From contig CP044131.1 in the NCBI GenBank assembly GCA_008727115.1, positions 3,224,001 through 3,288,000 of the forward strand: DNA of 64,000 nt, given 5' to 3'. A program made the translations under genes and the position numbers. Below, in pieces: positions 42,515 to 58,226 of this stretch (positions within the stretch are counted from its first letter, which is position 1; each line of letters begins with the position of its first letter). A model generated the notes under the pieces. The model saw nothing but the letters and a program-made list of their open reading frames with translations. It was not told where the DNA came from and made no database searches. The DNA is from Comamonas testosteroni. Lineage in GTDB: Bacteria > Pseudomonadota > Gammaproteobacteria > Burkholderiales > Burkholderiaceae_C.

Positions 42515-42565
42515 ATTGAAAAAAGGCTCTGAACTCGACGTTCAGAGCCCTTGACCCGATAGCGA

Positions 42566-44002
42566 TCAGTTTTTGTACAGCTTGGGCTGCGCCAGCTCCT
42601 CCAGCGCGCCATCGGGAATCACGCCTGCGCGAAGTGTCTGACGCACACGGTAGGCAATCAGCAAAATGCACAGGCTCGCCACTCCCAGGGCCAGCGGCGT
42701 TCGTTGCTCGGGGATGAAGCCCATCGCAATGACGATAGAGAGCATGCCTGCGATTGCCAGCCATGTCAGATACGGAAAGCACCACATACGCACCTTGAGC
42801 ATGTGAGGAGCTTCACGCTCCAGGCGCGAGCGCAGACGCAGCTGCGAGAGGGCAATCAGGATGTAGACAAAGATCGCCACGGTTCCATAAGAGTTCACCA
42901 GGAAGGCAAATACCTTGTCCGGAGACAGATAAGACATGACGATGGCGCCATAGCCGAACAAGGTGGCCGCCAAAATGGCATACACGGGCACGCCATTGCG
43001 GCTGACACGGGCCAGCACCTTGGGCGCATCTCCTCGGCGCGTCAGTGCAAACAGCATTCGCGAGGAAGCATAAAGCCCTGAGTTGAGAGCCGACAGCACT
43101 GCCGTCAGGACGACCGCATTCATGATCTGAGCGGCTGCAGGGATGCCAATCACTTCCAGAGCGCTGACATAAGGCGTGAACATGCTGGCCGAGTCCCATG
43201 GCACCAGGCAGGCCACCAAAAGCACCGAGCCGACGTAGAACACCAGCACACGCAAGATCACCGAGTTGGTGGCCTTGGCTACCGCTTTTTGCGGCTCGGC
43301 CGTTTCTGCTGCAGCGATCGTCACGATTTCAGCGCCAAAGTAAAAACCTGTCGCCGCAACGGCTCCCGTGAGCACGGGGACAATGCCGTTGGGCATGAAT
43401 CCACCGTTCTGCGTCAGATTGGCAACCTGCATGCCGCTGGTGCCGGGCGTCAGGCCCAATACATAGATGCCGGCAATAAAGAGAAAAACGACAATGGCAG
43501 CCACCTTGACGGAAGCCAGCCAGAACTCGCACTCGCCAAAAGACTTGACGGACACCAGGTTGGTCAGGGTCATCAATACCAGCAAGACTAGGCTGATGGT
43601 CCAGGCCGGTACATCCGGCAGCCAGTAGCGCACCAGCTCGGCCCCGGCCACCGCTTCAATGGCCACCACAATGACCCAGAAGTACCAGTACATCCAGCCG
43701 GTGAGAAAGCCTGCCAGCAGCCCTACTGCCGGCTTGTCGCTCCAGGCTTCGCGGGCGTACTCGTAAAAAGAGCCCCCGCTCATGGAGCTCGCCATCTCGC
43801 CGAGCATGCGCATCACCAGAACCACCAGCAGTCCGGTGATCAGAAAAGAGATGACAGCAGCCGGCCCGGCGGACTTGATCACCACGCCACTGCCGACGAA
43901 CAGGCCTGCACCAATCACGCCCCCCAGGGCGATCATGGTCATATGCCTTTGTTTGAGGCTGTGCGATAGCCCAGCTTGCTCCGTGTGCGGATTTCCAATC
44001 AT
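42566..44002 (-). CDS. amino-acid permease, APC superfamily
   Basis: The 478-residue permease has about 12 membrane segments and resembles GABA/proline-type AAT transporters. The N-terminal signature is LKQRHMTMIALGGVIGAGLF with VGSGVVIKSAGPAAVISF, followed by MLGEMASSMSGGSFYEYARE. A second signature is SALNSGLYASSRMLFALTRR. It follows a TauX-like gene by 179 bp on the same strand and probably shares its promoter. An amine, amino acid or amino-sulfonate is the likely substrate. The ATG at 44002 follows GGAGAC. Confidence 0.9.
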   Translation of the reverse strand: MIGNPHTEQAGLSHSLKQRHMTMIALGGVIGAGLFVGSGVVIKSAGPAAVISFLITGLLVVLVMRMLGEMASSMSGGSFYEYAREAWSDKPAVGLLAGFLTGWMYWYFWVIVVAIEAVAGAELVRYWLPDVPAWTISLVLLVLMTLTNLVSVKSFGECEFWLASVKVAAIVVFLFIAGIYVLGLTPGTSGMQVANLTQNGGFMPNGIVPVLTGAVAATGFYFGAEIVTIAAAETAEPQKAVAKATNSVILRVLVFYVGSVLLVACLVPWDSASMFTPYVSALEVIGIPAAAQIMNAVVLTAVLSALNSGLYASSRMLFALTRRGDAPKVLARVSRNGVPVYAILAATLFGYGAIVMSYLSPDKVFAFLVNSYGTVAIFVYILIALSQLRLRSRLEREAPHMLKVRMWCFPYLTWLAIAGMLSIVIAMGFIPEQRTPLALGVASLCILLIAYRVRQTLRAGVIPDGALEELAQPKLYKN

Positions 44003-44181
44003 TTTTTGTCTCCTGTCTTGCTGGCATGGAAGTGCCAGTCGCCACGGCTTTTTGTATGTCGTTCAGCCTGCGTCTCATACAGGCTGCTGCCGCGGTCGTT
44101 CAGTTATCTGCTTGAAAATGGAGGCAGGATGCAATGCGTGCCGGCCTCAGGAAAATACTGTGTGGAAGTGCTGATCTGCGA

Positions 44182-44580
44182 TCAAGTCGCTGCCGTGGGA
44201 GGCCGGTCTTTTCGGTAGGCATTTTTCACCGCAATCTTTCCATCCCGAAACGTAAAGACGTCCACCATGCGCGCCTCCACGCGCAGGCCATCGGCCTTGG
44301 TGCCTTTGAACGTGCACTCGGAGATGCCGCGTGCGCCGCACACAAAGTGCTCTCCATCCACCCAGGCGGCATCGGGAAAAGCCTGCCAGGCCATCTGAAA
44401 ACCATCTCGCACCGCTTCACGCCCCACGAAGCTGCGCCCCATCAGGTCTGGCCCAGCAACGGCGTGAAACTCGCACTCATCGGCCATGAAGCCCATCAAG
44501 GCGTCAATGTCATGGCGATTCCATGCCTCAGCAAAGCGTGCAAGCAACTGGGCATCAGGTTGAACATGGGGGGAACTCAT
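44182..44580 (-). CDS. NTF2/SnoaL-fold protein, TauX-like (taurine dehydrogenase small-subunit paralogue A)
   Basis: The 132-residue cone-shaped-barrel protein has WNRHDIDALMGFMADECEFH, AVAGPDLMGRSFVGREAV and VDVFTFRDGKIAVKNAYRKD. This pattern matches what I know as the small subunit of taurine dehydrogenase (TauX). By eye it differs from paralogue B at 48264-48656 at about 13 of 112 aligned residues. It is the first gene before an amino-acid permease, not beside a FAD subunit. It could be a spare small subunit, pair with the same TauY, or serve another amine oxidase. Confidence 0.8.
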   Translation of the reverse strand: MSSPHVQPDAQLLARFAEAWNRHDIDALMGFMADECEFHAVAGPDLMGRSFVGREAVRDGFQMAWQAFPDAAWVDGEHFVCGARGISECTFKGTKADGLRVEARMVDVFTFRDGKIAVKNAYRKDRPPTAAT

Positions 44581-44658
44581 ACTTACTCCAAAAATGGCTC
44601 ATGCCTTGAGCTTTCGCATTGAACAATGCGCACCTCCTTGACAGAAGCAAACTCCGAT

Positions 44659-44727
44659 TTCGATAAGCCATGCTAGGAAGCCTAAGCGCTATTTCGTAGA
44701 ACCAGCGCCGAACAATCGTTAAGTCCA
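44659..44727. promoter_or_regulatory. bipartite motif upstream of TauX-like paralogue A
   Basis: TTCGATAAGCCATGCTAGG is followed, 38 bases from its start, by TAGAACCAG-N8-AATCGTTA and then GTCCA. The same elements occur at 48724-48793 with nearly the same spacing. This is a candidate site for the MocR-type regulator. Confidence 0.6.
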
Positions 44728-44945
44728 ATCAAATCAAGACCGGCCCACGAAGCTTTCTCCCCCTCAGAAAGCACGCTTCAAAAACTCAATAAACCATTGA
44801 AAATATTGAATTTATTTACGCAATTAGACATCTAAATCCGGTGGACTCTTAGCCCTTGCTAATCTCGCGACCTAGGTAAAACGATAGGCCCTGCCAACGC
44901 CAGAATTTCCTGCCTTTCGGAGATCTCGGGCATCAAGACCGGACG

Positions 44946-44978
44946 CAAAAAAGACCAGGGCTTGAGACCCTGGCCTTT
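44946..44978 (-). terminator. terminator of the TRAP transporter operon
   Basis: The minus-strand stem CCAGGG/CCCTGG is extended by AGG/TCT and followed by TTTTTTG, 39 bp past the large-permease stop. Confidence 0.85.
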
Positions 44979-45016
44979 GCTGTTTTTGAGCGTTTCGGAC
45001 TTAACTCCGCAATCGA

Positions 45017-46357
45017 TCAATAGCCCATTTGCTTTGGCAGCCACAGAGAAAGCTGCGGGAAGAAAGCAATGATGAAGACAGCGAGTACGGACACGATGGT
45101 GAACGGCAGCACTCTGGCCACGATTTTTTCCACCGGCTCCCCTCCAATCCCTGAGGCCACAAAAAGGTTTTCGCCCAGCGGTGGCGTCTGGAAGCCGATC
45201 GAGAGCGCGCAGATCACCACGATGCCAACATGCGTGGGATCAGCGCCCAGCATGTACATGATGGGCAAGAGCACAGGCACCAGAATCATGATGGCGGCCA
45301 GCGTCTCCATGAACATGTCAACGAACAGCAGGAACAGAATCAGAATCGTCCAGATCAGCAGCACGTTATCCGTGAAGGACAGGATGGACTCCGCCGCCAT
45401 GGCCGGAATGCGCGCCTCCACCAGCAGGCGCCCAAATGCCGTGGCTGTGAACAAGATGAGCAGCACCCGCCCCGTAATCCATGTCGTGGTGCGCAGGGAT
45501 TGCAGCAAGGAAGCCAGCTTCAGTTCTTTGTGCACAAAAATGCCCACGAACAACGTGTAGAAGATCGCAATCACAGCCGACTCGGTGGGCGTAAAAAAGC
45601 CTGCGTAAATCCCCCCCAGAATAATCAGCGGAGCCAGCATGGACCAGATACCGGCACGCAGCGCCTTGCCAATGCTTTGCTTGCACCACTTCTCCGTCAA
45701 GCCCTTGTACCCACGCCTGCGAGAGATGAAGTAGTTCATCAAGATCAGGCTGGTCGCCATCACCAGGCCCGGCATGACACCCGCCACAAACAGCTTGGGG
45801 ATCGATGGCGTGGCAAAGCTGCCGAACTTCTCCAGAGCCTGGGGCGGAGGCGCCATACCCAAGGCTGAAATGCCAAAAATCACCATGGGAATGGACGGAG
45901 GAATGATGATCCCCAGCCCTCCGGAAGCTGCCGTCACCGCAGAGGCATAGGCACGGTCGTAACGCCGCTGCGTCATGGCAGGGATCATCAGCATGCCAAT
46001 GGCCGCCGTCGTTGCCGGGCCCGAGCCTGAGATGGCACCAAAGAACAGGCAGGCCAGGATAGTTGCCAGCCCCAGGCCTCCGGTAATCGGCCCTGCAAAG
46101 GCTTCTGCAATATCCACCAGCCTTCTGGATATGCCCGCCGCCTCCATCAAGGCGCCAGCCAGGACAAAGGCCGGCAAAGCCATCAGGGGGAAGCTCCCCA
46201 CCGACGTAAAGGCAATCTGAACCAAGGCAATCGGATCCTTGTCCAGTACCAGGTAAGCCGCCATTGCGCTGCCACCCAAAGCCACCGAAATCGGTGCCCC
46301 CATGATCAACAGCAAGCCAAAGCTGCCAAACAATATCTCTACTAAATAGTTTTCCAC
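45017..46357 (-). CDS. dctM: TRAP transporter large permease (DctM/TauM-like)
   Basis: The 446-residue large membrane subunit of a tripartite ATP-independent transporter uses the sodium gradient to drive uptake of a substrate delivered by the binding protein. It has about 12 segments. Family motifs include GAPISVALGGSAMAAY, LPAFVLAGALMEAAGISRRL, LFGAISGSGPATTAAIG and GGLGIIIPPSIPMVIFG. GTG 46357 is the likely start (AAGGTG upstream). It follows dctQ by 16 bp. TRAP transporters named TauKLM import taurine in Rhodobacter, consistent with this locus. Confidence 0.93.
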   Translation of the reverse strand: MENYLVEILFGSFGLLLIMGAPISVALGGSAMAAYLVLDKDPIALVQIAFTSVGSFPLMALPAFVLAGALMEAAGISRRLVDIAEAFAGPITGGLGLATILACLFFGAISGSGPATTAAIGMLMIPAMTQRRYDRAYASAVTAASGGLGIIIPPSIPMVIFGISALGMAPPPQALEKFGSFATPSIPKLFVAGVMPGLVMATSLILMNYFISRRRGYKGLTEKWCKQSIGKALRAGIWSMLAPLIILGGIYAGFFTPTESAVIAIFYTLFVGIFVHKELKLASLLQSLRTTTWITGRVLLILFTATAFGRLLVEARIPAMAAESILSFTDNVLLIWTILILFLLFVDMFMETLAAIMILVPVLLPIMYMLGADPTHVGIVVICALSIGFQTPPLGENLFVASGIGGEPVEKIVARVLPFTIVSVLAVFIIAFFPQLSLWLPKQMGY

Positions 46358-46373
46358 GGCATCACCTTTGCAG

Positions 46374-46922
46374 TCATGGATTGGAGGTGGTGGCTTGCTG
46401 GTTCAGAGCCTGCAGCTCTTTTTGCTCGGGATCCAGCAACTCCTCTCCACGAACCACCGTCAAATACAGGTTGATCAGCACCCGCAGCGCCATCAGCGCA
46501 AAGGCAATGGGCAAGATGAGATAAATCCACTTCATGGGGATGCCCAGGGTCTGGGATTTCCAGAAACGATTCATGTGGTTGAACACGAAGTCGTAGGCCA
46601 GATAGGCGAAGTAGAGGTTGAAGGCAATCCAGAGCACATCCGATGCCGCCAGCATGAACTTGCCAAGCGCCTTCGGCAGATACTTGAACTGGAACATCAC
46701 GCGGTTGTGGGCCGAGATCTTGGCTGCAACCACCGCGCCCATGTACGCAAACCACACAAACATATAGGTGGAAAGCTCTTCACTCCAGGCGATGGAGTAG
46801 CCGAAGACCTGGCGTGCAACGATCTGCACAAAAAGCAGGGTGACAAAGGCAGCCAGCAAAAGCTCGCACAAAACCGTCTCTGTCTTGTTGAGGCACTTGA
46901 GTAGTGCTCTGAGGAAAGACAT
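46374..46922 (-). CDS. dctQ: TRAP transporter small permease (DctQ/TauL-like)
   Basis: The 182-residue, four-helix small membrane subunit has VARQVFGYSIAWSEELSTYMFVWFAYMGAV in its first half, the DctQ signature. It includes the WSEEL segment that contacts the binding protein/permease complex. ATG 46922 is chosen because AAGGAG precedes it; the 6-codon longer frame lacks a site. It is the second gene of the binding protein - DctQ - DctM operon. Confidence 0.92.
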   Translation of the reverse strand: MSFLRALLKCLNKTETVLCELLLAAFVTLLFVQIVARQVFGYSIAWSEELSTYMFVWFAYMGAVVAAKISAHNRVMFQFKYLPKALGKFMLAASDVLWIAFNLYFAYLAYDFVFNHMNRFWKSQTLGIPMKWIYLILPIAFALMALRVLINLYLTVVRGEELLDPEQKELQALNQQATTSNP

Positions 46923-47095
46923 GGCATCTCCTTGAGGCAAGCATCAGCCCGGTGCTACGCCAGAAAGCACATGCCAGCGGCATTCAGGCGGGCCCGCAGT
47001 GCCCATTGGGTTGAGGCAAATAGAAAGTGAGCCTGGAAGTCAGAACGCTTGCTCCCTCCAGGGCAGGGCCTTGGAGGGAAGAAGAACTCTCAGAC

Positions 47096-48091
47096 TCAAC
47101 GCCCCAGAGTGCGCAGTACTTGATCCAGCTTGGCCTTGCCGCCGATGCTGTCGTAGAACTGTGGCCAGACCGCCTGAGTCGCCTTGCTGATCCACTCTTT
47201 TTCGCCGTCCGCCGGATCGACGATTTGCATGCCCTTGGCCGTCAGCTCCTTGCGGATGCGCCCTTCGGTGGCCTGAATCCAGGAATAGCTATGCTCCGAG
47301 GCTTCAGCACCGGCTTCGAGAATCGCTTTTTGCACATCCGCGGGCTGCTTTTTGAACACGGCCTCGCTGACAATCAGCGGCTCCAGCGAGTACACGTAGC
47401 GAATGTTCGTGATGTACTTCTGAACCTCATTGAACTGCATTGCAGAGATGGTCATGAAGGGATTGTCCTGACCGTCCACCACGCGCTGCTGAAGTGCGGT
47501 AAATGTTTCCGACCATGCCATGGGAGTGGGGTTGATGCCCCAGGCCTTGTAGCTGGCGATCATGATTTCATTCTTGGGAACGCGAATCTTGAGCCCTGCC
47601 AGATCCGCCACCTTGGTCACCGGCTTTTTGGAGTTGGTGAGCACTCGAAAGCCCGAGTAGGACCAGCCCACGATACGCACGCGGGCATCGCGCAAGGTAT
47701 TGGCCGTCAGTTCCTTGCCGACCTCACCCATGGTCAGCTTCTTGGCCTCTTCCGCGCTCTGAATCACATAAGGCAGCGTCAACACTCCCACCGAAGGAGA
47801 GAAAGGCGTGATGTTGTTGACCGCCAGAATGGAGAAGTCCAGCGTCCCCATGGCGGCGTTGTTGACCGTGTCTTCTTCGCTTCCCAGCGCGCCGTTGGGA
47901 AACAGATCCACCTTGTGTTTGCCCGCTGTTTTTTGCTCGAACAGCTGCTTGAATTTAGTGCCCAGCTCCCACTGTGTGCCGCCCTGTGCGTCGCCCACTG
48001 CCACCTTGAAGGTGGCGGACCATGCATTGCCTCCAGCCAGCACGGCTGCAGCGCAAGCGACATAAGAAATCGTTTTTTTGATATTCACCAT
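47096..48091 (-). CDS. dctP: TRAP transporter periplasmic binding protein (DctP/TauK-like)
   Basis: The 331-residue protein has a Sec signal (residues 1-25, ending NAWSA). The mature protein shows FKVAVGDAQGGTQWELGTKF, VDLFPNGALGSEEDTVNNAA, LKIRVPKNEIMIASYKAWG with the conserved Arg expected to bind a carboxylate or sulfonate, and VVDGQDNPFMTISAMQF. It would capture substrate for DctQM. The start at 48091 follows AAGGAG. It lies 172 bp after TauX-like paralogue B, mirroring paralogue A and its permease. Confidence 0.92.
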   Translation of the reverse strand: MVNIKKTISYVACAAAVLAGGNAWSATFKVAVGDAQGGTQWELGTKFKQLFEQKTAGKHKVDLFPNGALGSEEDTVNNAAMGTLDFSILAVNNITPFSPSVGVLTLPYVIQSAEEAKKLTMGEVGKELTANTLRDARVRIVGWSYSGFRVLTNSKKPVTKVADLAGLKIRVPKNEIMIASYKAWGINPTPMAWSETFTALQQRVVDGQDNPFMTISAMQFNEVQKYITNIRYVYSLEPLIVSEAVFKKQPADVQKAILEAGAEASEHSYSWIQATEGRIRKELTAKGMQIVDPADGEKEWISKATQAVWPQFYDSIGGKAKLDQVLRTLGR

Positions 48092-48263
48092 ATTTGTCTC
48101 CTTATTTGTATTGAGTGCTGTGAAACCACCCAGCAGACCGAAGGAAGGTTTGCGATCGAGACGAGGCATGAAGCCGCAGGCAGTACAAAAGTACGACAGG
48201 GCGAAACAGCAACGTATCGAGGGTGGTGTCAGCGGCTCTTATCTATGGCTGGCTCTATCGCTG

Positions 48264-48656
48264 TCAGCCCACAGCAATCGGCGGACGATCCTTGCGAAAG
48301 GCGTTCTTGACGGCGATCTTTCCATCACGGAATGTGAAGACGTCGACCATGCGTGCTTCCACGCGCTGGCCATCGGCCTTCGTGCCCTTGAACGTGCACT
48401 CGGAAAGGCCCAGGTCTCCATGGGCAAAGTGCACGCCATCCACCCAGGCCGCGTCGGGGAAGGCCTGCCAGGCCATCTGAAAGCCCTCGCGCACTGCATC
48501 TCGCCCCACAAAGCTGCGGCCCATCAGATCAGGCCCGGCAACGGCATGGAATTCGCACTCATCGGCCATGAAGCTCATCAGCGCCTCAATGTCATGGCGA
48601 TTCCAGGCAGCGGCAAAGTCCGCCAGGAACTGGGCATTGGGTTGGCTCGTTGTCAA
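48264..48656 (-). CDS. tauX: NTF2/SnoaL-fold protein, TauX-like (taurine dehydrogenase small-subunit paralogue B)
   Basis: The 130-residue protein is almost a copy of paralogue A: AVAGPDLMGRSFVGRDAV, MAWQAFPDAAWVDG and VDVFTFRDGKIAVKNAFRKD. It is divergent from the FAD oxidoreductase (TauY-like) and upstream of the TRAP genes. That is the arrangement expected if TauX and TauY together form taurine dehydrogenase (taurine to sulfoacetaldehyde plus ammonium, electrons to cytochrome c). The TauX assignment rests on recalled family patterns and context, not a search. Confidence 0.78.
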   Translation of the reverse strand: MTTSQPNAQFLADFAAAWNRHDIEALMSFMADECEFHAVAGPDLMGRSFVGRDAVREGFQMAWQAFPDAAWVDGVHFAHGDLGLSECTFKGTKADGQRVEARMVDVFTFRDGKIAVKNAFRKDRPPIAVG

Positions 48657-48999
48657 TGGTTTCTCCTCGTAGTTGGTTGGCTTGCCACGTTTCTCAGGAA
48701 ACGTTGCGCTAAGTCATCGAGTCTTCGATGAGCCATAGTAGGTTGCAGCCTTGCAGACTGGTTAGAACCAGATCACCCCAATCGTTAGGTCCAGATGACA
48801 GTCCCCATGCTTCTGGCTCCATCAAAACCTCAGCCTTGGCCCTAACAAGCTTCCCCTGTCGCTGGCTATGCTGCATTCAACAACCCGTGCCCTGGTCTGT
48901 GAAACACGCCCAGGTGAATACCCGCACTGGCTTGCAGCAATCAATTTCATAGCAATAGAGCGACGCTTAAAGCGCAGCCGATATCAGGAGACAAGCAGC
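48657..48999. other. divergent promoter region between tauX-like B and tauY-like genes
   Basis: No gene is supported. It holds the second copy of the bipartite motif near the left side. The right half is the leader of the FAD oxidase gene, whose ribosome site is CAGGAGAC at about 48986. Confidence 0.6.
48724..48793. promoter_or_regulatory. bipartite motif upstream of TauX-like paralogue B
   Basis: TTCGATGAGCCATAGTAGG, then TAGAACCAG-N8-AATCGTTA and GTCCA. This matches 44659-44727 at 16 of 19 bases in the first element, and at every base of TAGAACCAG, AATCGTTA and GTCCA. It could act on both divergent genes. Confidence 0.6.
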
Positions 49000-50421
49000 A
49001 TGAAAGCCGAGGACATTCGCCCCAGCCACCGCAACCCCTATGACCCGCAATACGACCCCTTGGTGGCCGCCAACCCCGGTCACGGTGCAGGCTATGCCCC
49101 CACTTACTGGGTCGGAACGGCGGGCCGCCCCCCCGAAGATGACGGCCCCATCGAAGCAGACACCGAAGCGGATGTCGTCATCGTGGGCTCGGGCTTCACC
49201 GGTTTGTCGACGGCTCTTTTCCTGGCGCGCGAGCATGGCATTCGCGCCATCGTTCTTGATGCCAACCAGACGGCCTGGGGCTGCACCAGCCGCAACGGCG
49301 GCCAGGGTCAAAATGCCAGCGGCCGCCTTTATCGCTCCCAATGGATCGATCGCTGGGGCAAGGACGTGGCCCTGAAGCTGGATGCGGAAATCCGCGAAGG
49401 CTTTGAGACCTTCAAGGATCTGGTCGCGGAGTTTCCAGAGTGCGAGCCTCAGCCTGGCGGGCACTTGTACATTGCCCACCGCGACAGAAAAATGGACTTT
49501 CTGCGCAACGAGACCCGGGTGATGCGTGAAGTCTTCGGCTATGACGCACGCATACTCAGCACCGCAGAGGTGCGCCGGGACTATGTCGATGATGCCGACT
49601 GCCGCGGAGCCATGCACGAGCCCGACGGCATTGGCGTACACCCTTTGAAGCTCGCCTTCGCTTACTTGCGCAAGGCCCGCGAACTGGGTGTGAAGGTACA
49701 CCCCGCGAGCCCTGTGATCGGCATGAAGACCGTCAATGGCGTGCACTACCTGCAGACACCGGGCGGCACGGTCAAAGCCCGCGCTGTGGGCTTTGCCACC
49801 GGGGGCTACACCAGCAATGGCATGCACCGCAGCCTGAATTCGAAAATCATGCCGATTCTCTCGAACTCGCTGGTCACCCGCCCTTTGACAGAAGAAGAGC
49901 TGGAAGCCACGAGCTTCAAGACCACGCAGGTCATTACCGACACCCGTACGCTGCGCTTTTACTACCGCAAGTTGCCGGACAACCGCGTCCAGATCGGCAG
50001 CCGCAGCGCGATCACGGGCGCTGACGCCCCCAACCCTGTGCACATGGCCAAGCTGGTCGATGGCCTGCACCACAAGTTCCCTGCCCTCAAGGGAATTCCC
50101 ATCGATTACTCGTGGTGGGGCTGGGTCGATGTCAGCCACGACATGATGCCCCGCATCTGCCAGCCCGACCCCAAGGAAAGCGTTTTTTACGCGACCGGCT
50201 ATGGCGGCAACGGCGTGTCTTTTTCCGCCCACGCAGGCCGCCGCATGGCCCAGCGCATCGCTGGCGTGCAAAGCCCGGCTTTCACTTTGCCCATCTACAA
50301 CTCCGAGCTGGAGTACCCCAATGTCTTCAACATGGTGCGCTCTCAGGCCTTCGCACCGTTTCGCCGCATGGGCCAGCGCTTCCTCTATCACTGGTACCAC
50401 ATGAACGACGAGAAGCAGTGA
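49000..50421 (+). CDS. tauY: FAD-dependent amine oxidoreductase, taurine dehydrogenase large-subunit-like
   Basis: The 473-residue flavoprotein is of the DAO/PuuB superfamily. The ADP-binding motif VVIVGSGFTGLSTALFLA lies near residues 58-75, with CTSRNGGQGQNASGRL in the FAD region. The C-terminal GWVDVSHDMMPRICQP and ATGYGGNGVSFSAHAGRRMA close the fold. PuuB-like enzymes oxidise amines; TauY, the catalytic subunit of taurine dehydrogenase, is of this kind. Divergence from the TauX-like gene and proximity to TRAP, MocR and xsc genes favour taurine or a similar amino-sulfonate. Gamma-glutamyl-putrescine oxidase is the alternative. The start is set by CAGGAGAC. Confidence 0.78.
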   Translation: MKAEDIRPSHRNPYDPQYDPLVAANPGHGAGYAPTYWVGTAGRPPEDDGPIEADTEADVVIVGSGFTGLSTALFLAREHGIRAIVLDANQTAWGCTSRNGGQGQNASGRLYRSQWIDRWGKDVALKLDAEIREGFETFKDLVAEFPECEPQPGGHLYIAHRDRKMDFLRNETRVMREVFGYDARILSTAEVRRDYVDDADCRGAMHEPDGIGVHPLKLAFAYLRKARELGVKVHPASPVIGMKTVNGVHYLQTPGGTVKARAVGFATGGYTSNGMHRSLNSKIMPILSNSLVTRPLTEEELEATSFKTTQVITDTRTLRFYYRKLPDNRVQIGSRSAITGADAPNPVHMAKLVDGLHHKFPALKGIPIDYSWWGWVDVSHDMMPRICQPDPKESVFYATGYGGNGVSFSAHAGRRMAQRIAGVQSPAFTLPIYNSELEYPNVFNMVRSQAFAPFRRMGQRFLYHWYHMNDEKQ

Positions 50422-50500
50422 GCACGCTTCGCTCAAGCAGCCACCTTGATCCATCAGCATCCATGCCGCCCTGAGCGGTCTGGATGCCGAGAACATCAAT

Positions 50501-50591
50501 AAAAGGAGCTGGTAGCGCTTGTCAATCTTGAATTTCAGATAGTTTTGTATTTGAAATCAAGTAGTGACAAGCGCTATCAGCTCCTTTTTTT
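50501..50591. repeat. 90-bp near-perfect palindrome
   Basis: AAAAGGAGCTGGTAGCGCTT plus GTCA (50501-50524) pairs with 50565-50588 at 23 of 24 bases, and the inner arms (CTTGAATTTCA against TGAAATCAAG) pair further. It ends in a T run on the plus strand. It sits between convergent genes and probably terminates both. Related AGCGCTTG/CAAGCGCT fragments occur at about 10200-10290, 39604-39700 and 59930-60045. Confidence 0.85.
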
Positions 50592-50678
50592 AATATGTGG
50601 GAACGACCAAGCAAGCTGAGGAAAAGCGCTGTGCAAGCGCTCTCTCCTTCAACCCCTTCCACTTCTGCGCTCTCTACT

Positions 50679-52382
50679 TCAGCGCTTGCACAGCAAGGCA
50701 GCAATCTCCAGCATCAGGCTTTCGTCGATTTGCTCAAGCAGATCAATCGCCAGGCGACGGCGATAAAACACGCCCAGATCCAGCCCCACACCCAGGGCAC
50801 AGACCTGAATGTCGCCAGCCCGCTCCTGAGCAGCCAGCACCTGACGCAGGTGCTGATCCAGATAGTGCTCATCATTGGCCTGGTGCGTCGCCGTATCCAT
50901 GGGGCAGCCATCCGAGATCAGCAGCAGGATGCAACGCTGAGCCGTTTGCGCACGCAGCCTCTGGCAAGCCCATTCAACGGCTTCACCATCCAGCCCTTCG
51001 CGAAAGATATCGGGCTTGCGCAGCGCAGCCACGCCCTGTCTTGCATGACGCCAGCGCTTGTTGCCTTCTTTGAAAACAATATGCAAGCGCTCGTTCAGGC
51101 GCCCCGGAAACTCCGGCCTGCCCGCCCTTTGCCACTGGCGCCGCGCGCGGCCACCATTCCAGGCCTGCGTTGAAAACCCGAGAATCTCTACGGCTGCGCC
51201 CGCCATTTCCAGAGAGCGGCCCAGCACATCCAGCAACAAGGACAAAGGCTTGGCGTGAGCCTTCATGGAGCCCGAGCAGTCCATCAGAATGGTGACCGCC
51301 GTTTGATTGACGGGCCTTTGCATTTCCTGCTTGAAGATGGCCGACTGCTGCGGATCGGTCACCAGCTGGGACAGGCGGCTGCCATCAAGGTGTCCTTCTT
51401 CCTGCGCAAAGTTCCAGCCATCCGGCTGATGGCTGGCCAGGCGCTGCTGCAGATAGCGTGCCAGCCGCCCTGCGTGCTGCAGGCCAGCGCTTGCCAGCTC
51501 CTCATCCATCTGGCCGCGAAATTGGCGCAGCTGCTCCGCACGCACCAGGGACGCCGCATGCACCTCGCGATCAAACTCCCGCGTAAAGACCCGGTAGCTT
51601 TGCGCCGTGCTGGCCCAGGCGCGGCTATCGCCGGTCTGCGCCACGGGCAGATCATCAAGGCTCTGAGACTCGAAGTGCAGTGGCAGTGCAAAGTTGCCGC
51701 GCCGCCTGGCCCCAGCAGTGCCGCGCGGCGCATCTTCCTGGGCCGCCAGCACGGCCGCGCTGACCCAGCGACTGATCGCAAGCGCCGGTGCAAGAAACTG
51801 TTGCTGATCGCCTCTGAAGCGCCGCAGCTGCACCCAGTACTGCCCCAGCTCGGGTGCCATGGACAGGCGTGTGGCCTCCACCAGATCGGCCATGCCATGG
51901 GGTATCTCGTGCCCGGTCAAGCGACTCCAGGCAGTGATGGAGACCGTGAACAGCAAGATGCCCAGACTGCTCTCCGTCAGGCCGGAATCCACAAAGGCCT
52001 GGCACCAATGCTCAAAGCGCTGGCGCATGTTGTCGCGTGCACCAGGCCAGCTCTCGGGCACCAGGCTTTCCACCCGCAACTGCTCCAGCAGCTCAAAGAT
52101 CATGCGCTCCACAGGCTCCTTGGCCACATGCGCCTGGAACAAGGACGCATCGCTCAACTGCAAGCGCAGCCCCATGCTGTCGAGCAGGCCCCGCTGATCG
52201 GTCTGCAGCGCTGGCACTTCAATATGGTGAGCCGCCGCCTGCGGCACGGGGTTGATGCCTTGGTACAGGGTCTGCCCGCTCCACTGCAAGGAGTCATCCC
52301 CCGTGATGGCACGCAGCATGGCCCCGCCCCAGGCTTCCATCTGCAGCAAGGAAACCGATTTGGATGAGGCAGCCATGTTCAT
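50679..52382 (-). CDS. CobT-like VWA-domain protein, partner of a MoxR/CobS-type ATPase
   Basis: The 567-residue protein resembles the CobT subunit of aerobic cobaltochelatase. The C-terminal von Willebrand A domain has the MIDAS motif LMDCSGSMKAH (Asp368, Ser370, Ser372) and LLLISDGCPMD. Upstream is a helical N-terminal region with a basic patch GTAGARRRG. It overlaps the cobS-like gene by 4 bases. No CobN large subunit or corrin gene is nearby, so cobalt insertion is doubtful. VWA/MoxR pairs commonly activate metal or redox enzymes, and the adjacent sulfonate genes are the obvious clients (inference). Confidence 0.8.
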   Translation of the reverse strand: MNMAASSKSVSLLQMEAWGGAMLRAITGDDSLQWSGQTLYQGINPVPQAAAHHIEVPALQTDQRGLLDSMGLRLQLSDASLFQAHVAKEPVERMIFELLEQLRVESLVPESWPGARDNMRQRFEHWCQAFVDSGLTESSLGILLFTVSITAWSRLTGHEIPHGMADLVEATRLSMAPELGQYWVQLRRFRGDQQQFLAPALAISRWVSAAVLAAQEDAPRGTAGARRRGNFALPLHFESQSLDDLPVAQTGDSRAWASTAQSYRVFTREFDREVHAASLVRAEQLRQFRGQMDEELASAGLQHAGRLARYLQQRLASHQPDGWNFAQEEGHLDGSRLSQLVTDPQQSAIFKQEMQRPVNQTAVTILMDCSGSMKAHAKPLSLLLDVLGRSLEMAGAAVEILGFSTQAWNGGRARRQWQRAGRPEFPGRLNERLHIVFKEGNKRWRHARQGVAALRKPDIFREGLDGEAVEWACQRLRAQTAQRCILLLISDGCPMDTATHQANDEHYLDQHLRQVLAAQERAGDIQVCALGVGLDLGVFYRRRLAIDLLEQIDESLMLEIAALLCKR

Positions 52383-53383
52383 GCGAGAGAGGCGATAGAG
52401 GCCAGCGCCGAATCCTGTGACGACTCTTGCGACGGCTCCAGCTCCTGGGCAAAGCAACGCTGGAAATACTCCGTCACGATGGCCCGCTCTGCGGGCTCAC
52501 ATTTATTGAGGAAGGACAGCTCGAACGCCAGCTTCAAGTCATTGAAGATGGAAAGGTTCTCGGCCCAGGTAATGACGGTTCTGGGAGACATCAGCAAAGA
52601 CAGGTCGCCCACCGCAAACCCTTTTCGCGTCAGCCCGGCCAAAGCCACCATGGCCTGCACCGTCTTGAGGCCCTCAGGGCTGGCCAGCTCCGGCACGCGG
52701 GCAACCACAATCGCCGCCTCCTCGTCCTCTGGCAAATAGTTCAGGCTGGTCACCAGATTCCAGCGATCAAGCTGCGCATGGTTGAGCTGCTGCGTGCCGT
52801 GATAGAGGCCGTTGAGATTGCCTTGGCCCAGCGTGTTCATGGTGGCAAACATGCGGAAATGCGGATGCGGCTGAATCACCCGCTTTTGATCGAGCATGGT
52901 GAAGCTGCCTTCACGCTCGAGCACACGCTGGATCACAAACATCACATCGGGGCGGCCGGCATCGTACTCATCAAAGACCATGGCGACGGGTCGCTGCAAT
53001 GCCCAGGGAAGAATTCCCTCCTGAAACTGCGTCACCTGTTTGCCATCCTTGAGCACGATGGTGTCCTTGCCGACCAGATCCATGCGGCTGACATGACCAT
53101 CGAGATTCACACGCACGCAAGGCCAGTTCAGCCGTGCGGCCACCTGCTCGATATGGGTGGACTTGCCTGTGCCGTGCAGCCCCTGAATGACAACGCGCCG
53201 GTTGTGCGCAAAACCGGCCAGGATGGCCAGTGTCACTCGTGGGTTCAATCGATATGCAGTGTCGATGGCCGGGACATGCTCCGTGCGCTCTGCAAAGGCC
53301 GGCACAAGCATTCCGGAGTCGATCCCAAAGACGTCGCGTACTTTCACAAGTTGGGGGGGCTGCAGCTGGTTCAGGTCAGTCAT
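52379..53383 (-). CDS. CobS-like MoxR-type AAA+ ATPase
   Basis: The 334-residue ATPase has Walker A GLHGTGKST (68-76), NLDGHVSRMDLVGKD, Walker B VAMVFDEYDAG (133-143), and FATMNTLGQGNLNGLYHGT with sensor 1. These are the hallmarks of CobS. It starts 8 bases inside the end of iclR and ends 4 bases inside cobT, so all three are translationally coupled. It is likely a chaperone ATPase that remodels a partner together with the VWA protein. A run of seven C at codons 9-11 (seven G on the plus strand) is a possible slippage site. Confidence 0.86.
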   Translation of the reverse strand: MTDLNQLQPPQLVKVRDVFGIDSGMLVPAFAERTEHVPAIDTAYRLNPRVTLAILAGFAHNRRVVIQGLHGTGKSTHIEQVAARLNWPCVRVNLDGHVSRMDLVGKDTIVLKDGKQVTQFQEGILPWALQRPVAMVFDEYDAGRPDVMFVIQRVLEREGSFTMLDQKRVIQPHPHFRMFATMNTLGQGNLNGLYHGTQQLNHAQLDRWNLVTSLNYLPEDEEAAIVVARVPELASPEGLKTVQAMVALAGLTRKGFAVGDLSLLMSPRTVITWAENLSIFNDLKLAFELSFLNKCEPAERAIVTEYFQRCFAQELEPSQESSQDSALASIASLA

Positions 53384-54200
53384 CGTCGGCTTCCGGTGGT
53401 ATTTCGTCGTTGATTCGGGCAATGGCAGCGGCCGCTGCCTGCAGCTTGGGGAGAAAGGACAAAGCCTTCTCCTTGGAAAAACGCATGATGGGAGCCTGCA
53501 CTGCCAGCCCCATATTGGAGTTGCCGCTGGGCGCGGGAACCAGCACTCCCAGGCACAGCAGACCAGGCAGGAATTCCTCGTTATCAAAGGCATAGCCCTG
53601 GGCCTTGACCTGATCGAGCTCCTGGTCCACCGCTTCAAAGCTTGTCAGGGTGTTGGCAGTGAAGGCCTCCAGCGGTACGTTGGCCAGCAGGCGACGACGC
53701 TGGGCGGGCGCCATCTGGCTCAAGAACAGCTTGCCGGTGGCAGAGCAATGCGCAGGAACGCGAGAGCCCGGGTGCAGATAAAAGCGCAGAGGCGCTGGTG
53801 TTTCCACCCGGTCCAGATACAAGACTTCGCTGCCTGAAAACGCCGTAATGTTGCAGCTCTCCCCTAAATCGTTGACCAGCTGCGTCAGCACCGCATGACG
53901 CGCGCCATGCGTCGTGTTGTTGAGCAGCACGTTTTCAGCCAGACGCATCAGGCGCTGGCCCGTGCTGTAGTGCCTCCCATTGCCATCTCTTTGCAGGATT
54001 CCGGCGCTTTCCAGCTGCGCCAGCATGCGGTGCATGGTGGGCTTGGGAAGCCCCAGTTCATCGACCAGGTTCTGCAAGGTAAACGGCACGCTCTTCTGGG
54101 CCACGGTCTCCAGCAACGCAAACAGTCGCAGGTTCGGCGTGTCTCCATCAAGGCGGGCTGTGCCTGTGTTTTCGCTGTGTTTCATATCTTGATCGATCAT
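53376..54200 (-). CDS. IclR-family transcriptional regulator
   Basis: The 274-residue regulator has an N-terminal winged helix (FTLQNLVDELGLPKPTMHRM, then GILQRDGNGRHYSTG) and a C-terminal IclR effector domain (VLYLDRVETPAPLRFYLHPG, SRVPAHCSATGKLFLS, FLPGLLCLGVLVPAPSG). It is divergent from xsc and the first gene of the cobS/cobT-like operon, so it probably controls both directions. I prefer ATG 54200 (MIDQDMKH), which has GGAA at a usual distance; 54212 (MELNM) is possible. The effector is unknown. Confidence 0.88.
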   Translation of the reverse strand: MIDQDMKHSENTGTARLDGDTPNLRLFALLETVAQKSVPFTLQNLVDELGLPKPTMHRMLAQLESAGILQRDGNGRHYSTGQRLMRLAENVLLNNTTHGARHAVLTQLVNDLGESCNITAFSGSEVLYLDRVETPAPLRFYLHPGSRVPAHCSATGKLFLSQMAPAQRRRLLANVPLEAFTANTLTSFEAVDQELDQVKAQGYAFDNEEFLPGLLCLGVLVPAPSGNSNMGLAVQAPIMRFSKEKALSFLPKLQAAAAAIARINDEIPPEADDD

Positions 54201-54202
54201 AT

Positions 54203-54215
54203 TAAGTTCCATTTT
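54203..54215. repeat. direct repeat TAAGTTCCATTTT, copy 1
   Basis: This 13-bp sequence overlaps the iclR start region and recurs exactly at 54307-54319 in the xsc leader. It is a candidate second regulator site. Confidence 0.6.
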
Positions 54216-54231
54216 TTTAGTCAATTTATTC

Positions 54232-54300
54232 CGAAAAAAGAAATTTGTTTGACACAAGATCCTAAAAATGTCTAAGATTGCATCGTGATTTCTTTTTTCG
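54232..54300. promoter_or_regulatory. paired inverted operator half-sites around the xsc promoter
   Basis: CGAAAAAAGAAAT (54232-54244) and ATTTCTTTTTTCG (54288-54300) are perfect inverted copies, 43 bases apart. One lies just upstream of the -35, the other over the expected transcription start. This suits looping or cooperative binding by IclR. Confidence 0.6.
54249..54278 (+). promoter_or_regulatory. sigma-70-type promoter of xsc
   Basis: A perfect TTGACA (54249-54254) is followed by TAAGAT (54273-54278) with 18-base spacing. The expected start at about 54285 leaves a roughly 50-base leader with AAAGGAG before the ATG at 54337. Confidence 0.65.
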
Positions 54301-54306
54301 AAACCA

Positions 54307-54319
54307 TAAGTTCCATTTT
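54307..54319. repeat. direct repeat TAAGTTCCATTTT, copy 2
   Basis: This is an exact copy of 54203-54215, located in the xsc leader just upstream of the ribosome site. Confidence 0.6.
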
Positions 54320-54336
54320 CAACAAAGGAGACAAAG

Positions 54337-56148
54337 ATGGCTGCAACAGATAATCGTAAGGTGGTCGAAGGCGTTCAGAAGATGACCCCCTCGGAAGCAT
54401 TCGTGGAAACCTGTGTTGCCAACGGCGTCAGCGAGATGTTCGGCATCATGGGCTCGGCCTTCATGGATGCCATGGATATTTTTGCCCCGGCTGGCATTCG
54501 CCTGATCCCCGTTGTCCACGAGCAAGGCGCGGCCCATATGGCCGACGGCTACGCCCGCGTTTCTGGTCGCCACGGCGTGGTCATCGGTCAGAACGGCCCC
54601 GGCATCAGCAACTGCGTGACCGGTATCGCCGCCGCTTTCTGGGCCCACAGCCCCGTGGTGATCGTCACCCCCGAAACCGGCACCATGGGCATGGGCCTGG
54701 GCGGCTTCCAGGAAGCCAATCAGCTGCCCATGTTCCAGGAGTTCACCAAGTACCAGGGCCATGTCTGCAATCCCAAGCGCATGGCCGAGTTCACGGGCCG
54801 CGTGTTTGACCGTGCCATGTCCGAGATGGGCCCAACCCAGCTGAACATTCCCCGTGACTATTTCTACGGCGAAATCGAGTGCGAGATCCCCAAGCCCATG
54901 CGCGTGGACCGCGGCCATGGTGGTGAAGCCAGCCTGCAAGCAGCAGTGGATCTGCTCAAGACCGCCAAGTTCCCCGTGATCCTGGCCGGTGGCGGCGTGG
55001 TCATGGGTGATGCCGTGGAAGAAGCCAAGCAACTGGCCGAGCGCCTGGGCGCACCCGTGGCCACCGGCTATCTGCGCAACGATGCCTTCCCCGCCAAGCA
55101 CCCTCTGTGGGCCGGCCCTCTGGGCTACCAGGGCTCCAAGGCTGCCATGAAGCTGATCGCCCAGGCCGACGTGGTGATTGCACTGGGCTCGCGCATGGGC
55201 CCCTTCGGCACCCTGCCCCAGCACGGCATGGACTACTGGCCCAAGACGGCCAAGATCATTCAGGTCGAAGCCGATCACACCAACCTGGGTCTGGTCAAGA
55301 AGATCTCCGTGGGCATCAACGGCGATGCCAAGGCCGTGGCCGCCGAGCTGGTCAAGCGCCTGGCCGATGTGAAGCTGGACTGCGATGCCACCAAGGCAGC
55401 ACGTGCAGACACCGTTGCCACGGAAAAAGCCGCATGGGAAAAAGAGCTGGACGAGTGGACGCACGAGCGCGACGCTTACAGCCTGGACATGATTGAAGAG
55501 GCCAAGAACGAGCGCACACCCACTGGCGGCACCTACCTGCACCCCCGCCAAGTGCTGCGCGAGCTGGAAAAAGCCATGCCCGCACGTGCCATGGTGTCCA
55601 CCGACATCGGCAACATCAACTCCGTGGCCAACAGCTACCTGCGCTTTGACGAGCCACGCAGCTTCTTCGCTCCCATGAGCTTCGGCAACTGCGGCTACGC
55701 CCTGCCCACCATCATCGGTGCCAAGTGCGCGGCTCCCGACCGTCCCGCCATTGCCTACGCCGGTGATGGCGCCTGGGGCATGAGCATGATGGAAATCATG
55801 ACCGCCGTGCGTCACGACATCCCCGTGACCGCCGTGGTGTTCCACAACCGCCAGTGGGGTGCGGAAAAGAAGAACCAGGTGGACTTCTACAACCGCCGCT
55901 TTGTGGCGGGCGAGCTGGAGAGCGAAAGCTTCTCCGACATTGCCAAGGCCATGGGCGCCGAAGGCATCGTGGTGGACAACATTGAAGACGTCGGCCCCGC
56001 CCTGCAAAAAGCCATCGACATGCAGATGAAGGAAGGCAAGACCTGCGTGATCGAGATCATGTGCACGCGTGAGCTGGGCGACCCCTTCCGTCGCGACGCT
56101 CTGTCCAAGCCTGTGCGTTTCCTGGAAAAGTACAAAGACTACGTCTGA
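54337..56148 (+). CDS. xsc: sulfoacetaldehyde acetyltransferase
   Basis: The 603-residue ThDP enzyme converts sulfoacetaldehyde plus phosphate to acetyl phosphate plus sulfite, the desulfonating step in C2-sulfonate breakdown. The N-terminal MTPSEAFVETCVANGVSEMF, MGSAFMDAMDIFAPAGIR and HEQGAAHMADGYARVSG (catalytic Glu) are typical of Xsc. The ThDP-binding region has YAGDGAWGMSMMEIMTAVRH and VVFHNRQWGAEKKNQVDFY. Length matches Xsc (about 590-600). Followed by pta and an exporter gene, this is a canonical sulfonate dissimilation module. A strong promoter and AAAGGAG suggest high inducible expression. Confidence 0.95.
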   Translation: MAATDNRKVVEGVQKMTPSEAFVETCVANGVSEMFGIMGSAFMDAMDIFAPAGIRLIPVVHEQGAAHMADGYARVSGRHGVVIGQNGPGISNCVTGIAAAFWAHSPVVIVTPETGTMGMGLGGFQEANQLPMFQEFTKYQGHVCNPKRMAEFTGRVFDRAMSEMGPTQLNIPRDYFYGEIECEIPKPMRVDRGHGGEASLQAAVDLLKTAKFPVILAGGGVVMGDAVEEAKQLAERLGAPVATGYLRNDAFPAKHPLWAGPLGYQGSKAAMKLIAQADVVIALGSRMGPFGTLPQHGMDYWPKTAKIIQVEADHTNLGLVKKISVGINGDAKAVAAELVKRLADVKLDCDATKAARADTVATEKAAWEKELDEWTHERDAYSLDMIEEAKNERTPTGGTYLHPRQVLRELEKAMPARAMVSTDIGNINSVANSYLRFDEPRSFFAPMSFGNCGYALPTIIGAKCAAPDRPAIAYAGDGAWGMSMMEIMTAVRHDIPVTAVVFHNRQWGAEKKNQVDFYNRRFVAGELESESFSDIAKAMGAEGIVVDNIEDVGPALQKAIDMQMKEGKTCVIEIMCTRELGDPFRRDALSKPVRFLEKYKDYV

Positions 56149-56160
56149 CCTTCCCTATCA

Positions 56161-56193
56161 ACCCCGCGGTTTCAAAACCCGCGGGGTTTTTTC
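56161..56193 (+). terminator. intrinsic terminator between xsc and pta
   Basis: ACCCCGCGG pairs with CCGCGGGGT, followed by TTTTTT. It probably makes xsc mRNA much more abundant than the distal pta and exporter messages. Confidence 0.85.
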
Positions 56194-56214
56194 GGACCCT
56201 CGACAGGAGCACCC

Positions 56215-57186
56215 ATGGCACTCGTCACTCTTCCCGACGTCACCACCGCCCCACAAAGCGCCACCCCACACCGCCCGCACCTGGATCGCCTGCTGGAAAA
56301 AGCACGTGCTCAAGGCCCCATCTGTGTCGCAGTTGCCTATCCGTGCGATGCCAGTGCCTTGCAAGCCGCAGTGCAAGCCGCAGAGGCCGGGCTGATCCAG
56401 CCTTTGCTGGTCGGACCACGAGAGCGTATCGAAGCCGCCGCTCAAGCAGCCGGACTCGACCTCTCCCATACCCAGATTCACCACACTGCCGACGATGCAC
56501 GTCTGGCAGCCTCTCAGGCCGCCGCCCTGTGCAGAGACGGCCAGGCCAAGGCCTTGATGAAAGGCAGCCTGCACAGCGATGACCTGCTGGCAGCAGCTGT
56601 GGCCCGAGACGCAGGACTTCGCACGGACCGCCGCGCCAGCCATGTCTTTGTCATGGACGTTCCTGCCTATAACCGCCCCCTGCTGATGACCGACTGTGTC
56701 GTCAATATCTTTCCGACTCTGCTCGACAAACGCGACATTGCGCAGAACGCCGTCAATCTCGCCCATTCGATCGGCATCGCCCAGCCCCGTGTCGCGATTC
56801 TGTCTGCCGTAGAGACCGTCAACCCCGCCATTCCCGGCACGGTCGATGCAGCAGCCCTGTGCAAAATGGCCGACCGCGGCCAAATCACCGGCGGCATTTT
56901 CGACGGCCCGCTTGCCTACGACAACGCTATCTCCCTGACCTCTGCCACCAACAAAGGCATCGTCTCCGAGGTCGCAGGCAACCCCGATGTGCTGCTGGTC
57001 CCCAGCCTTGAAGCGGGCAACATGATCTACAAGCAGCTGGTCTACATGGCCAACGCGGAGTGCGCCGGTCTGGTACTTGGCATGCGCGTTCCCATCGTGC
57101 TGACCAGCCGCTCGGACTCCATCGCCAGCCGCATTGCCTCCTGCGCCCTGGCCGTTCTCGCCAGCAAGGCCAAGGAGCAGACATGA
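56215..57186 (+). CDS. pta: phosphate acetyltransferase
   Basis: The 323-residue short-form Pta transfers the acetyl group from acetyl phosphate to CoA, consuming the Xsc product. Blocks include VAVAYPCDASALQAAVQAA, QAKALMKGSLHSDDLLAAAV, FVMDVPAYNRPLLMTDCVVN, GGIFDGPLAYDNAIS and the final LEAGNMIYKQLVYMANAECA. The N-terminal DRTGG extension of E. coli Pta is absent, as usual in sulfonate clusters. It lies 66 bp after xsc beyond a terminator and overlaps the exporter gene by 4 bases. Confidence 0.92.
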   Translation: MALVTLPDVTTAPQSATPHRPHLDRLLEKARAQGPICVAVAYPCDASALQAAVQAAEAGLIQPLLVGPRERIEAAAQAAGLDLSHTQIHHTADDARLAASQAAALCRDGQAKALMKGSLHSDDLLAAAVARDAGLRTDRRASHVFVMDVPAYNRPLLMTDCVVNIFPTLLDKRDIAQNAVNLAHSIGIAQPRVAILSAVETVNPAIPGTVDAAALCKMADRGQITGGIFDGPLAYDNAISLTSATNKGIVSEVAGNPDVLLVPSLEAGNMIYKQLVYMANAECAGLVLGMRVPIVLTSRSDSIASRIASCALAVLASKAKEQT

Positions 57187-58226
57187 GTCCGGCCAGCGCT
57201 CCCCTGACCCCGCCCACGCCTCTTTCCAAGAGGATTCCAAGCCTGGGCCTGCTGCCCGGCATCGCACTCTCGGGCGTGATTGCATTGGCAGCCACGTTTG
57301 TCTCGACCCTGCACGGTGGCCCTCAGCTGCTGTATGCACTGTTCTTTGGCGTCGCTTTCCACTTCCTGAGCCAGGATGCCAAAACCAAACCCGGCATCGA
57401 GTTCTGTGCACGAGGCGTGCTACGTCTTGGCGTGGGTCTGCTCGGTGCGCGCATTACCGCCACCCAGATTGCAGGCCTGGGCTTGAGCACTGCGCTGATC
57501 GTCATCGCGGCTGTCGTGACCACCATTCTGTGTGGCTCATTGCTGGGTCGACGCCTTGGCATGACCCGCCCGCAAGGCGTGTTGTCTGGCGGAGCCGTTG
57601 CCATTTGCGGAGCATCTGCAGCCCTGGCCATCTCTGCTGTCCTGCCCCGCGACAAGAACAGCGATCGCTTCACCCTCATGGTTGTCGTGACGGTGACCGT
57701 GCTCTCCACCGTTGCCATGGTTCTCTACCCGCTGATTGCCCGGCTTCTAAACTTGCCGCCAGACATGGCTGGCCTTTTCATCGGCGGCAGCATTCACGAT
57801 GTGGCCCAGGTGGTAGGTGCTGGCTACACCATCGATCAGGCCACAGGAGATTACGCCACCATCGTGAAGCTGTTCCGTATCTCCATGCTGGCAGTCGTCG
57901 TCGTTGTGGTCTCTGCAATCTTCAAGCAGCAGCGCGAAGCAGCCACCGAACAGAGCTCGGGCAAGAAGCCGCCCTTGGTTCCCTGGTTTCTCTGGGTCTT
58001 TGTCGCCCTGGTCTGCATCAACTCGCTGGGCTGGGTGCCAAGCACCTTGCAATTGCAGTTGACCGACCTGTCCAAGCATTGCCTGGTTCTGGCCATCGCC
58101 GCACTGGGCATGAAGACCTCGTTCACACAACTGGCACAAGCCGGCTGGCGCCCCTTTGTTCTGCTGCTGGTCGAGACCGTCTGGATGGCTGCATTCGTCC
58201 TGCTCGCCATCACGCTCACGCCCTGA
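57183..58226 (+). CDS. UPF0324/YeiH-family putative sulfite or sulfate exporter (TauZ-like)
   Basis: The 347-residue membrane protein has about ten hydrophobic segments. Family blocks are GIEFCARGVLRLGVGLLGAR, SGGAVAICGASAALAISAVL and FIGGSIHDVAQVVGAGY. UPF0324 proteins named TauZ/SuyZ accompany xsc in several sulfonate degraders and are proposed to export the sulfite or sulfate released. The ATGA overlap with pta supports that role here. Export activity is inferred from context, not shown by sequence. Confidence 0.85.
   Translation: MSPASAPLTPPTPLSKRIPSLGLLPGIALSGVIALAATFVSTLHGGPQLLYALFFGVAFHFLSQDAKTKPGIEFCARGVLRLGVGLLGARITATQIAGLGLSTALIVIAAVVTTILCGSLLGRRLGMTRPQGVLSGGAVAICGASAALAISAVLPRDKNSDRFTLMVVVTVTVLSTVAMVLYPLIARLLNLPPDMAGLFIGGSIHDVAQVVGAGYTIDQATGDYATIVKLFRISMLAVVVVVVSAIFKQQREAATEQSSGKKPPLVPWFLWVFVALVCINSLGWVPSTLQLQLTDLSKHCLVLAIAALGMKTSFTQLAQAGWRPFVLLLVETVWMAAFVLLAITLTP

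Follow-up and report, generated by a model that had tools for sequence, protein, structure and literature searches.

In a 64,000-nt stretch of Comamonas testosteroni contig CP044131.1 (hereafter the window, to which all coordinates refer), a CobS-like ATPase and a CobT-like protein are encoded next to xsc, the gene for sulfoacetaldehyde acetyltransferase, and these two proteins probably form a dedicated MoxR AAA+/von Willebrand factor A (VWA) pair whose client is Xsc. The best reading of the sequence evidence is that the pair would activate or repair one Xsc subfamily without being strictly required for it, and we infer that it acts on Xsc itself. A link between CobST-like proteins and sulfonate metabolism had been suggested in an initial annotation of this DNA, and it is supported by gene content and gene order; the linkage of the genes to xsc, which that annotation had singled out for checking, is conserved across genome samples and loci. 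No description of a link between the pair and Xsc was found in literature searches whose coverage was partial, most subscription papers lying outside it.

The window belongs to genome G000, a single contig of 4.14 Mb rated 100% complete. The iclR–cobS-like–cobT-like operon initially proposed beside xsc, with overlaps of 8 and 4 bases, is confirmed by the coordinates: all three genes are open, lie on the minus strand and are divergent from xsc. The first of the trio encodes an IclR-family regulator (53376..54257, read from a TTG, with an alternative ATG at 54200; Pfam IclR_C, E 5e-36, and HTH_IclR). It overlaps by 8 bp (53376-53383) the gene of the candidate motor, a CobS-like MoxR-type AAA+ ATPase of 334 residues (52379..53383, the mechanical open reading frame continuing upstream to 53638), which carries the Pfam domains CobS_N and AAA_5 and matches PDB CobS 9ujv in sequence comparison (E 9e-136). 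The candidate adaptor, a CobT-like VWA protein of 567 residues (50679..52382, open reading frame extending to 52457), is encoded after a second overlap of 4 bp (52379-52382); it shows the CobT_C/CobT pair of Pfam matches (PF11775, E 6e-43; PF06213, E 4e-16) and a sequence match to PDB CobT 9uka (E 8.5e-78). The proposed client, xsc, lies on the plus strand (54337..56148); its product scores 1021 bits with NCBIfam sulphoacet_xsc (cut-off 676) and is 99% identical to Xsc of a Comamonas metagenome-assembled genome (MAG).

Both proteins retain the residues expected of a motor and its adaptor. In the CobS-like protein, Walker A (GLHGTGKS) and Walker B (VFDE) are retained in all 20 rows compared, two positions showing the conservative exchanges L/M and V/I. 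The adjacent gene encodes a VWA domain with a complete metal ion-dependent adhesion site (MIDAS: D368, S370, S372, T405 and D491), invariant in 35 of 35 rows, and the two together have the hallmarks of a MoxR AAA+/VWA system. An AlphaFold2 model of the CobT-like protein (mean predicted local distance difference test score 79.7, predicted template modelling score 0.57) comprises a helical N-terminal CobT domain, a low-confidence linker around residues 219-244 and a C-terminal VWA domain. Structure comparison, covering mainly residues 290-567, gave NorD and midasin as the closest folds of the VWA part; CobT 9uka was not among the 50 matches listed, which excludes nothing.

Linkage and co-occurrence of the pair with Xsc

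The distribution of the pair was followed in three overlapping samples of 150 family, 378 phylum and 359 order genomes (among the positives, G000 and G128 are shared by all three, and two samples include G410 and G484). In the family sample, the CobT-like query gave 17 matches, of which 15 are strong, with E-values of 4e-121 or lower, and two are borderline; the Xsc query also gave 17. CobT-like protein and Xsc coincide in 15 of 15 genomes, Xsc occurs alone in two (G017 and G121) and neither is found in 133 (Fisher p 8e-19). All 15 have cobS within about 1.1 kb of xsc, the cobT of G101 being on a separate contig. Xsc reached the set limit in six genomes of the phylum sample, and CobT-like matches of more than 600 bits come from exactly these six; the remaining 118 of 124 CobT matches are cobaltochelatase-like CobT, at 306-367 bits. 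In the order sample, 44 genomes contain Xsc, with identities of 76-100% in 13 and of 61-72% in the other 31. A CobT-like protein scoring above 570 bits is encoded in 11, which are all the genomes with Xsc at 80% identity or more, and its gene lies less than 3 kb from xsc in nine of them; two further, weaker CobT matches, at 342 and 303 bits, belong to the cobaltochelatase type. Xsc of about 80% identity occurs in 10 of the 169 plasmid records that carry an Xsc, and seven of the 10 also have a CobT-like gene. The Xsc-like group at 61-72% identity, which includes G581, G587, G674 and G860 (loci L147-L150) and 27 other order genomes, may differ in role from the pair-linked Xsc; an IclR-type gene lies nearby in all four of these loci, pta in L150 only.

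The arrangement of the genes was compared in the best 80 of at least 312 places confirmed in a profile scan of genome contigs with the CobT-like alignment; these loci are selected through CobT and belong to genomes of unstated completeness. The stretches fetched around the pair contain cobS in 78 loci, xsc (counted at more than 60% identity) in 67 and a TauY candidate in 35; 62 have an IclR-type gene, which in 44 is no more than 500 bp away from the pair. cobS adjoins cobT in 78 of the 80, the other two being interrupted by contig ends, and, after cobS, no gene is found near the pair as regularly as xsc. In nine of the 67 loci xsc is present only in pieces, mostly at contig ends; eight of the 13 loci without nearby xsc have it elsewhere, which brings xsc to the genomes of 75 of the 80. 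The loci come from Comamonadaceae, Burkholderiaceae, Alcaligenaceae, Rhodocyclales, Halomonadaceae, Leucothrix, Oceanisphaera and two Amycolatopsis.

The orientation of xsc towards the pair varies among the 67 loci. It is divergent in 33 with iclR as the sole recognised gene between, in 11 with none recognised and in one with a permease between; it is convergent in 18, with pta and/or tauE between, and on the same strand in four (three without a recognised gene between, one with pta). In L083, L098 and L113, xsc, cobS and cobT are consecutive on one strand, with no TauE, molybdoenzyme or YeiH gene between them. Other neighbours recur less often: the window type of pta in 13 of 80 loci and a divergent Pta type (C8) of the same Pfam family in 33, TauE in 23, a molybdoenzyme in 11, YeiH in 10 and a CobW/G3E GTPase in seven. 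On these counts Pta, TauE, YeiH, the molybdoenzyme, transporters and CobW/amidohydrolase were rejected as constant partners. The molybdoenzyme, with its DmsC-like partner, we take to be perhaps SoeABC.

Two xsc copies, or pieces of two, stand on either side of the pair or close to it in L004, L060, L066, L079, L084, L086, L089, L111, L112 and L114; contigs often terminate within xsc in such loci, and the two Xsc rows of L066 are identical. CobW/G3E GTPase genes were seen near the pair in L001 (12649-15266) and in the seven of the 80 loci just counted, L067, L094, L102, L104, L108, L115 and L118, with an amidohydrolase gene with or near the CobW match in L001, L094, L102, L104 and L115; this amidohydrolase may be a metal-dependent enzyme that hydrolyses a conjugated sulfonate.

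Separation from cobaltochelatase

CobS and CobT are known as subunits of cobaltochelatase, and the initial annotation had remarked that CobN was missing. A genome search bears this out, as CobN/BchH (PF02514), the only corrin gene product searched for, has no match in the complete G000. PF02514 is present in 54 of the 150 family genomes and in six of the 15 with the pair, with no association between the two (p 0.78); it is absent from 11 and present in nine of 20 further pair-bearing genomes of unstated completeness. Three of the six family genomes could be assigned and show that PF02514 can have other partners: in G018, where the match is CobN by NCBIfam, and in G147 a ChlI-type ATPase gene follows the PF02514 gene, and in G148 the match is BchH; G053, G069 and G128 were left unassigned. 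ChlI/ChlD are described as CobN partners in one report (PMC9227772).

The window proteins also miss the NCBIfam equivalog cut-offs, with 503 bits against 559 for the CobS-like and 298 against 759 for the CobT-like protein. In quick trees of chosen rows, whose cobaltochelatase members were picked by score or annotation with their CobN unchecked, the CobS-like proteins form one clade (32 rows versus 13 of cobaltochelatase type; SH-aLRT 94, just below the starred level), as do the CobT-like proteins (32 rows versus 14 CobT; SH-aLRT 100). The linker of the CobT-like proteins, taken as the 100 residues before Y263, has a median acidity of 0.18 (0.07-0.25, 32 rows) against 0.36 in CobT (0.16-0.43, 14 rows); since these ranges overlap, the linker is described as less acidic and not as having lost its acidity.

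A second, separate CobS/CobT-type pair was observed in locus L128, on a plasmid of Pandoraea oxalativorans (NZ_CP011518.2, 1177-8635), where it closes a urease cluster. ureD and ureABC lie on one strand, and a UreE-domain gene, ureG, cobS and cobT on the other; no gene was annotated or matched as UreF within the stretch. The CobS of this cluster nests within rhizobial CobS in the tree.

Client of the pair and rival explanations

Among the explanations considered, that of an ordinary cobaltochelatase CobS/CobT which serves B12 synthesis and stands beside xsc by chance is the least credible, and we have set it aside. The CobS-like protein is 64% identical to S. meliloti CobS and PF02514 does occur in six family and nine other pair-bearing genomes, but G000 would need a substitute protein unlike CobN, PF02514 shows no association with the pair, the equivalog cut-offs are missed and the clades are separate; moreover, a ChlI-type ATPase gene comes after the PF02514 gene in both G018 and G147, and G148 has BchH. 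It is somewhat easier to conceive, although still unlikely, that the pair is a chelatase-like motor which, like CobST together with CobN, loads a metal (Mg, Co or other), the recipient being Xsc or a different pathway enzyme. The nearest sequence relatives are cobaltochelatase subunits, CobW/G3E GTPases occur near the pair, the separate pair of Pandoraea oxalativorans lies in a cluster for urease, a nickel enzyme, and the Xsc clade has fixed residues of its own, among them N428, H503 and C576. This idea is countered by the lack of a CobN-like large subunit in G000 and in 11 of the 20 other genomes, by the much less acidic linker (with overlapping ranges), by the restriction of CobW to seven of 80 loci and by D477 and N504, which presumably make up the metal site usual in thiamine-diphosphate enzymes and do not vary in any of the 71 Xsc rows.

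Three clients had initially been envisaged, namely taurine dehydrogenase, Xsc and an unlinked enzyme of the same regulon, of which Xsc fits best. An improbable client is taurine dehydrogenase (TauXY), a flavoenzyme that precedes Xsc in the pathway. A TauY-like gene adjoins the trio in the window, is found close to the pair in 35 of the 80 loci and is present in close form in 14 of the 15 pair-bearing family genomes. However, among 22 genomes with pair and xsc picked from the 80 loci as having no TauY near the pair, close TauY is missing from 11, three isolates and eight MAGs, the latter possibly for want of sequence. The isolates are two Amycolatopsis and Leucothrix pacifica, and their lack of TauY, if genuine, weighs against a general client. 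In addition, TauY and Xsc occur without the pair in G121, G676 and G850, and in Paracoccus without a linked pair; where present, TauY is also farther from the pair than xsc (median 3.7 versus 1.1 kb). Taurine dehydrogenase was thus set aside as a general client on the distribution of TauY, with the caution that eight of the 11 genomes are MAGs, and its absence from these 11 leaves Xsc as the most constant partner. In L001, L028 and L039, xsc has genes for GMC oxidoreductases in its vicinity; these enzymes may, we assume, convert isethionate to sulfoacetaldehyde, which would fit a client downstream of both the taurine and the isethionate routes. There is a small chance, slightly below that of metal loading, that the pair serves sulfite handling or an unlinked enzyme of the regulon and adjoins xsc for co-regulation only. 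The IclR gene within the trio makes co-regulation likely, and TauE, molybdoenzyme and YeiH-type genes do recur as neighbours; yet none of them is constant, and none stands between xsc, cobS and cobT in the three loci where these are consecutive on one strand.

Several observations weigh against Xsc as the client. Gene linkage is evidence of a shared pathway and not of contact, and the rows of the trees were collected mainly via CobT, which is a bias. Xsc of the same clade occurs without the pair in G017 and G121, and in G676 (78% identity) and G850 (76%) of the order sample; accordingly, such an Xsc either does without the pair or relies on a substitute. The pair lies 28 kb from xsc in G410 and 21 kb in G484, and is found in none of the 31 order genomes with Xsc at 61-72%. 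No linked pair was seen in two inspected loci with Xsc near 45% identity, nor any pair on the records of three Rhodococcus plasmids with Xsc of about 80% identity, whose chromosomes were not searched. Finally, xsc was not found genome-wide for L047, L050, L082, L085 and L101, in four of which the contig terminates within about 0.3 kb upstream of cobS.

Residues of Xsc were considered as a mark of the pair. Nineteen positions are fixed in the rows with the pair, and because 15 of them are common to all five nested rows without it, they were not used in this way; the KYKDYV-like tail was likewise rejected, being retained by the nested pair-less Xsc. By likeness to the clade consensus, three of the five are placed among the lowest of the 71 rows, which is suggestive only.

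If Xsc is the client, the CobT-like protein would most likely dock onto it via the VWA MIDAS, and the CobS-like ring would spend ATP to remodel it, by analogy with CbbQ/CbbO acting on Rubisco. Remodelling could free a dead-end or sulfite-blocked thiamine-diphosphate site or aid Xsc assembly, and the IclR regulator would tie production of the pair to that of xsc. More tentatively, a cobaltochelatase motor pair may have lost its chelatase partner, moved between phyla with one Xsc branch and become an ATP-driven activase of a thiamine-diphosphate enzyme, clearing a cofactor blocked by sulfite or substrate. We know of no earlier ATP-driven activase of a thiamine-diphosphate enzyme. Should Xsc prove to be the client, genes that carry the label "cobaltochelatase CobS/CobT" in organisms lacking CobN would be reassigned to taurine/isethionate degradation, and cobS/cobT matches alone would be no marker of B12 synthesis. 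MoxR/VWA machines would gain a new class of client, and some Xsc would be expected to need help for activity when produced alone.

Neighbouring genes and comparison with known systems

Downstream of xsc on the plus strand lie pta (56215..57186; Pfam/NCBIfam), encoding a phosphate acetyl/butyryltransferase for the next pathway step, and the gene of a putative YeiH-type exporter (57060..58226; PF03601, E 3e-70), whose reading frame overlaps pta and probably starts at about 57183. On the other side of the trio, a plus-strand gene (48868..50421, start probably near residue 45) encodes an FAD-dependent oxidoreductase of the DAO family (PF01266, E 3e-59), a TauY candidate; it is 56% identical to an FAD oxidoreductase adjoining xsc in Paracoccus aminovorans. 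Next to it, on the minus strand, a small SnoaL/NTF2-like protein (48264..48656; PF12680, E 1e-22) is presumably TauX, the putative taurine dehydrogenase thereby being divided between the strands. The window holds a second close SnoaL/NTF2-like copy (44182-44580, minus strand), which is located by a GABA-permease-like gene and is 41% identical to the NTF2 gene adjoining xsc in Paracoccus. A TRAP transporter DctP-Q-M, probably for sulfonate uptake, is encoded at 45017..48169 on the minus strand (DctP PF03480, E 2e-73); similar TRAP genes lie near the pair in a Photobacterium locus and several Halomonas loci.

A functional parallel is CbbQ/CbbO, which likewise combines a small MoxR AAA+ motor with a MIDAS-bearing VWA adaptor and adjoins the genes of one enzyme (PMC4660213). 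At about 770 residues, CbbO is the larger protein, and the region ahead of its VWA domain is unrelated. No Rubisco was found among ten proteins scanned in the part of the window from 41033 to 58226; the candidate client here is a thiamine-diphosphate enzyme, whose activation is predicted. NorQD serves nitric oxide reductase, and the CobS-like protein is weakly similar to NorQ in sequence (9qh4, E 2e-6). The likeness to CobNST (PDB 9ujv, 9uka) extends to a homologous AAA+ module, homologous N-terminal and VWA domains, an equal gene order and retained Walker and MIDAS residues; the window pair differs from it in having no CobN in its genome, in scoring below the equivalog cut-offs, in forming clades of its own with a less acidic linker and in its linkage to xsc.

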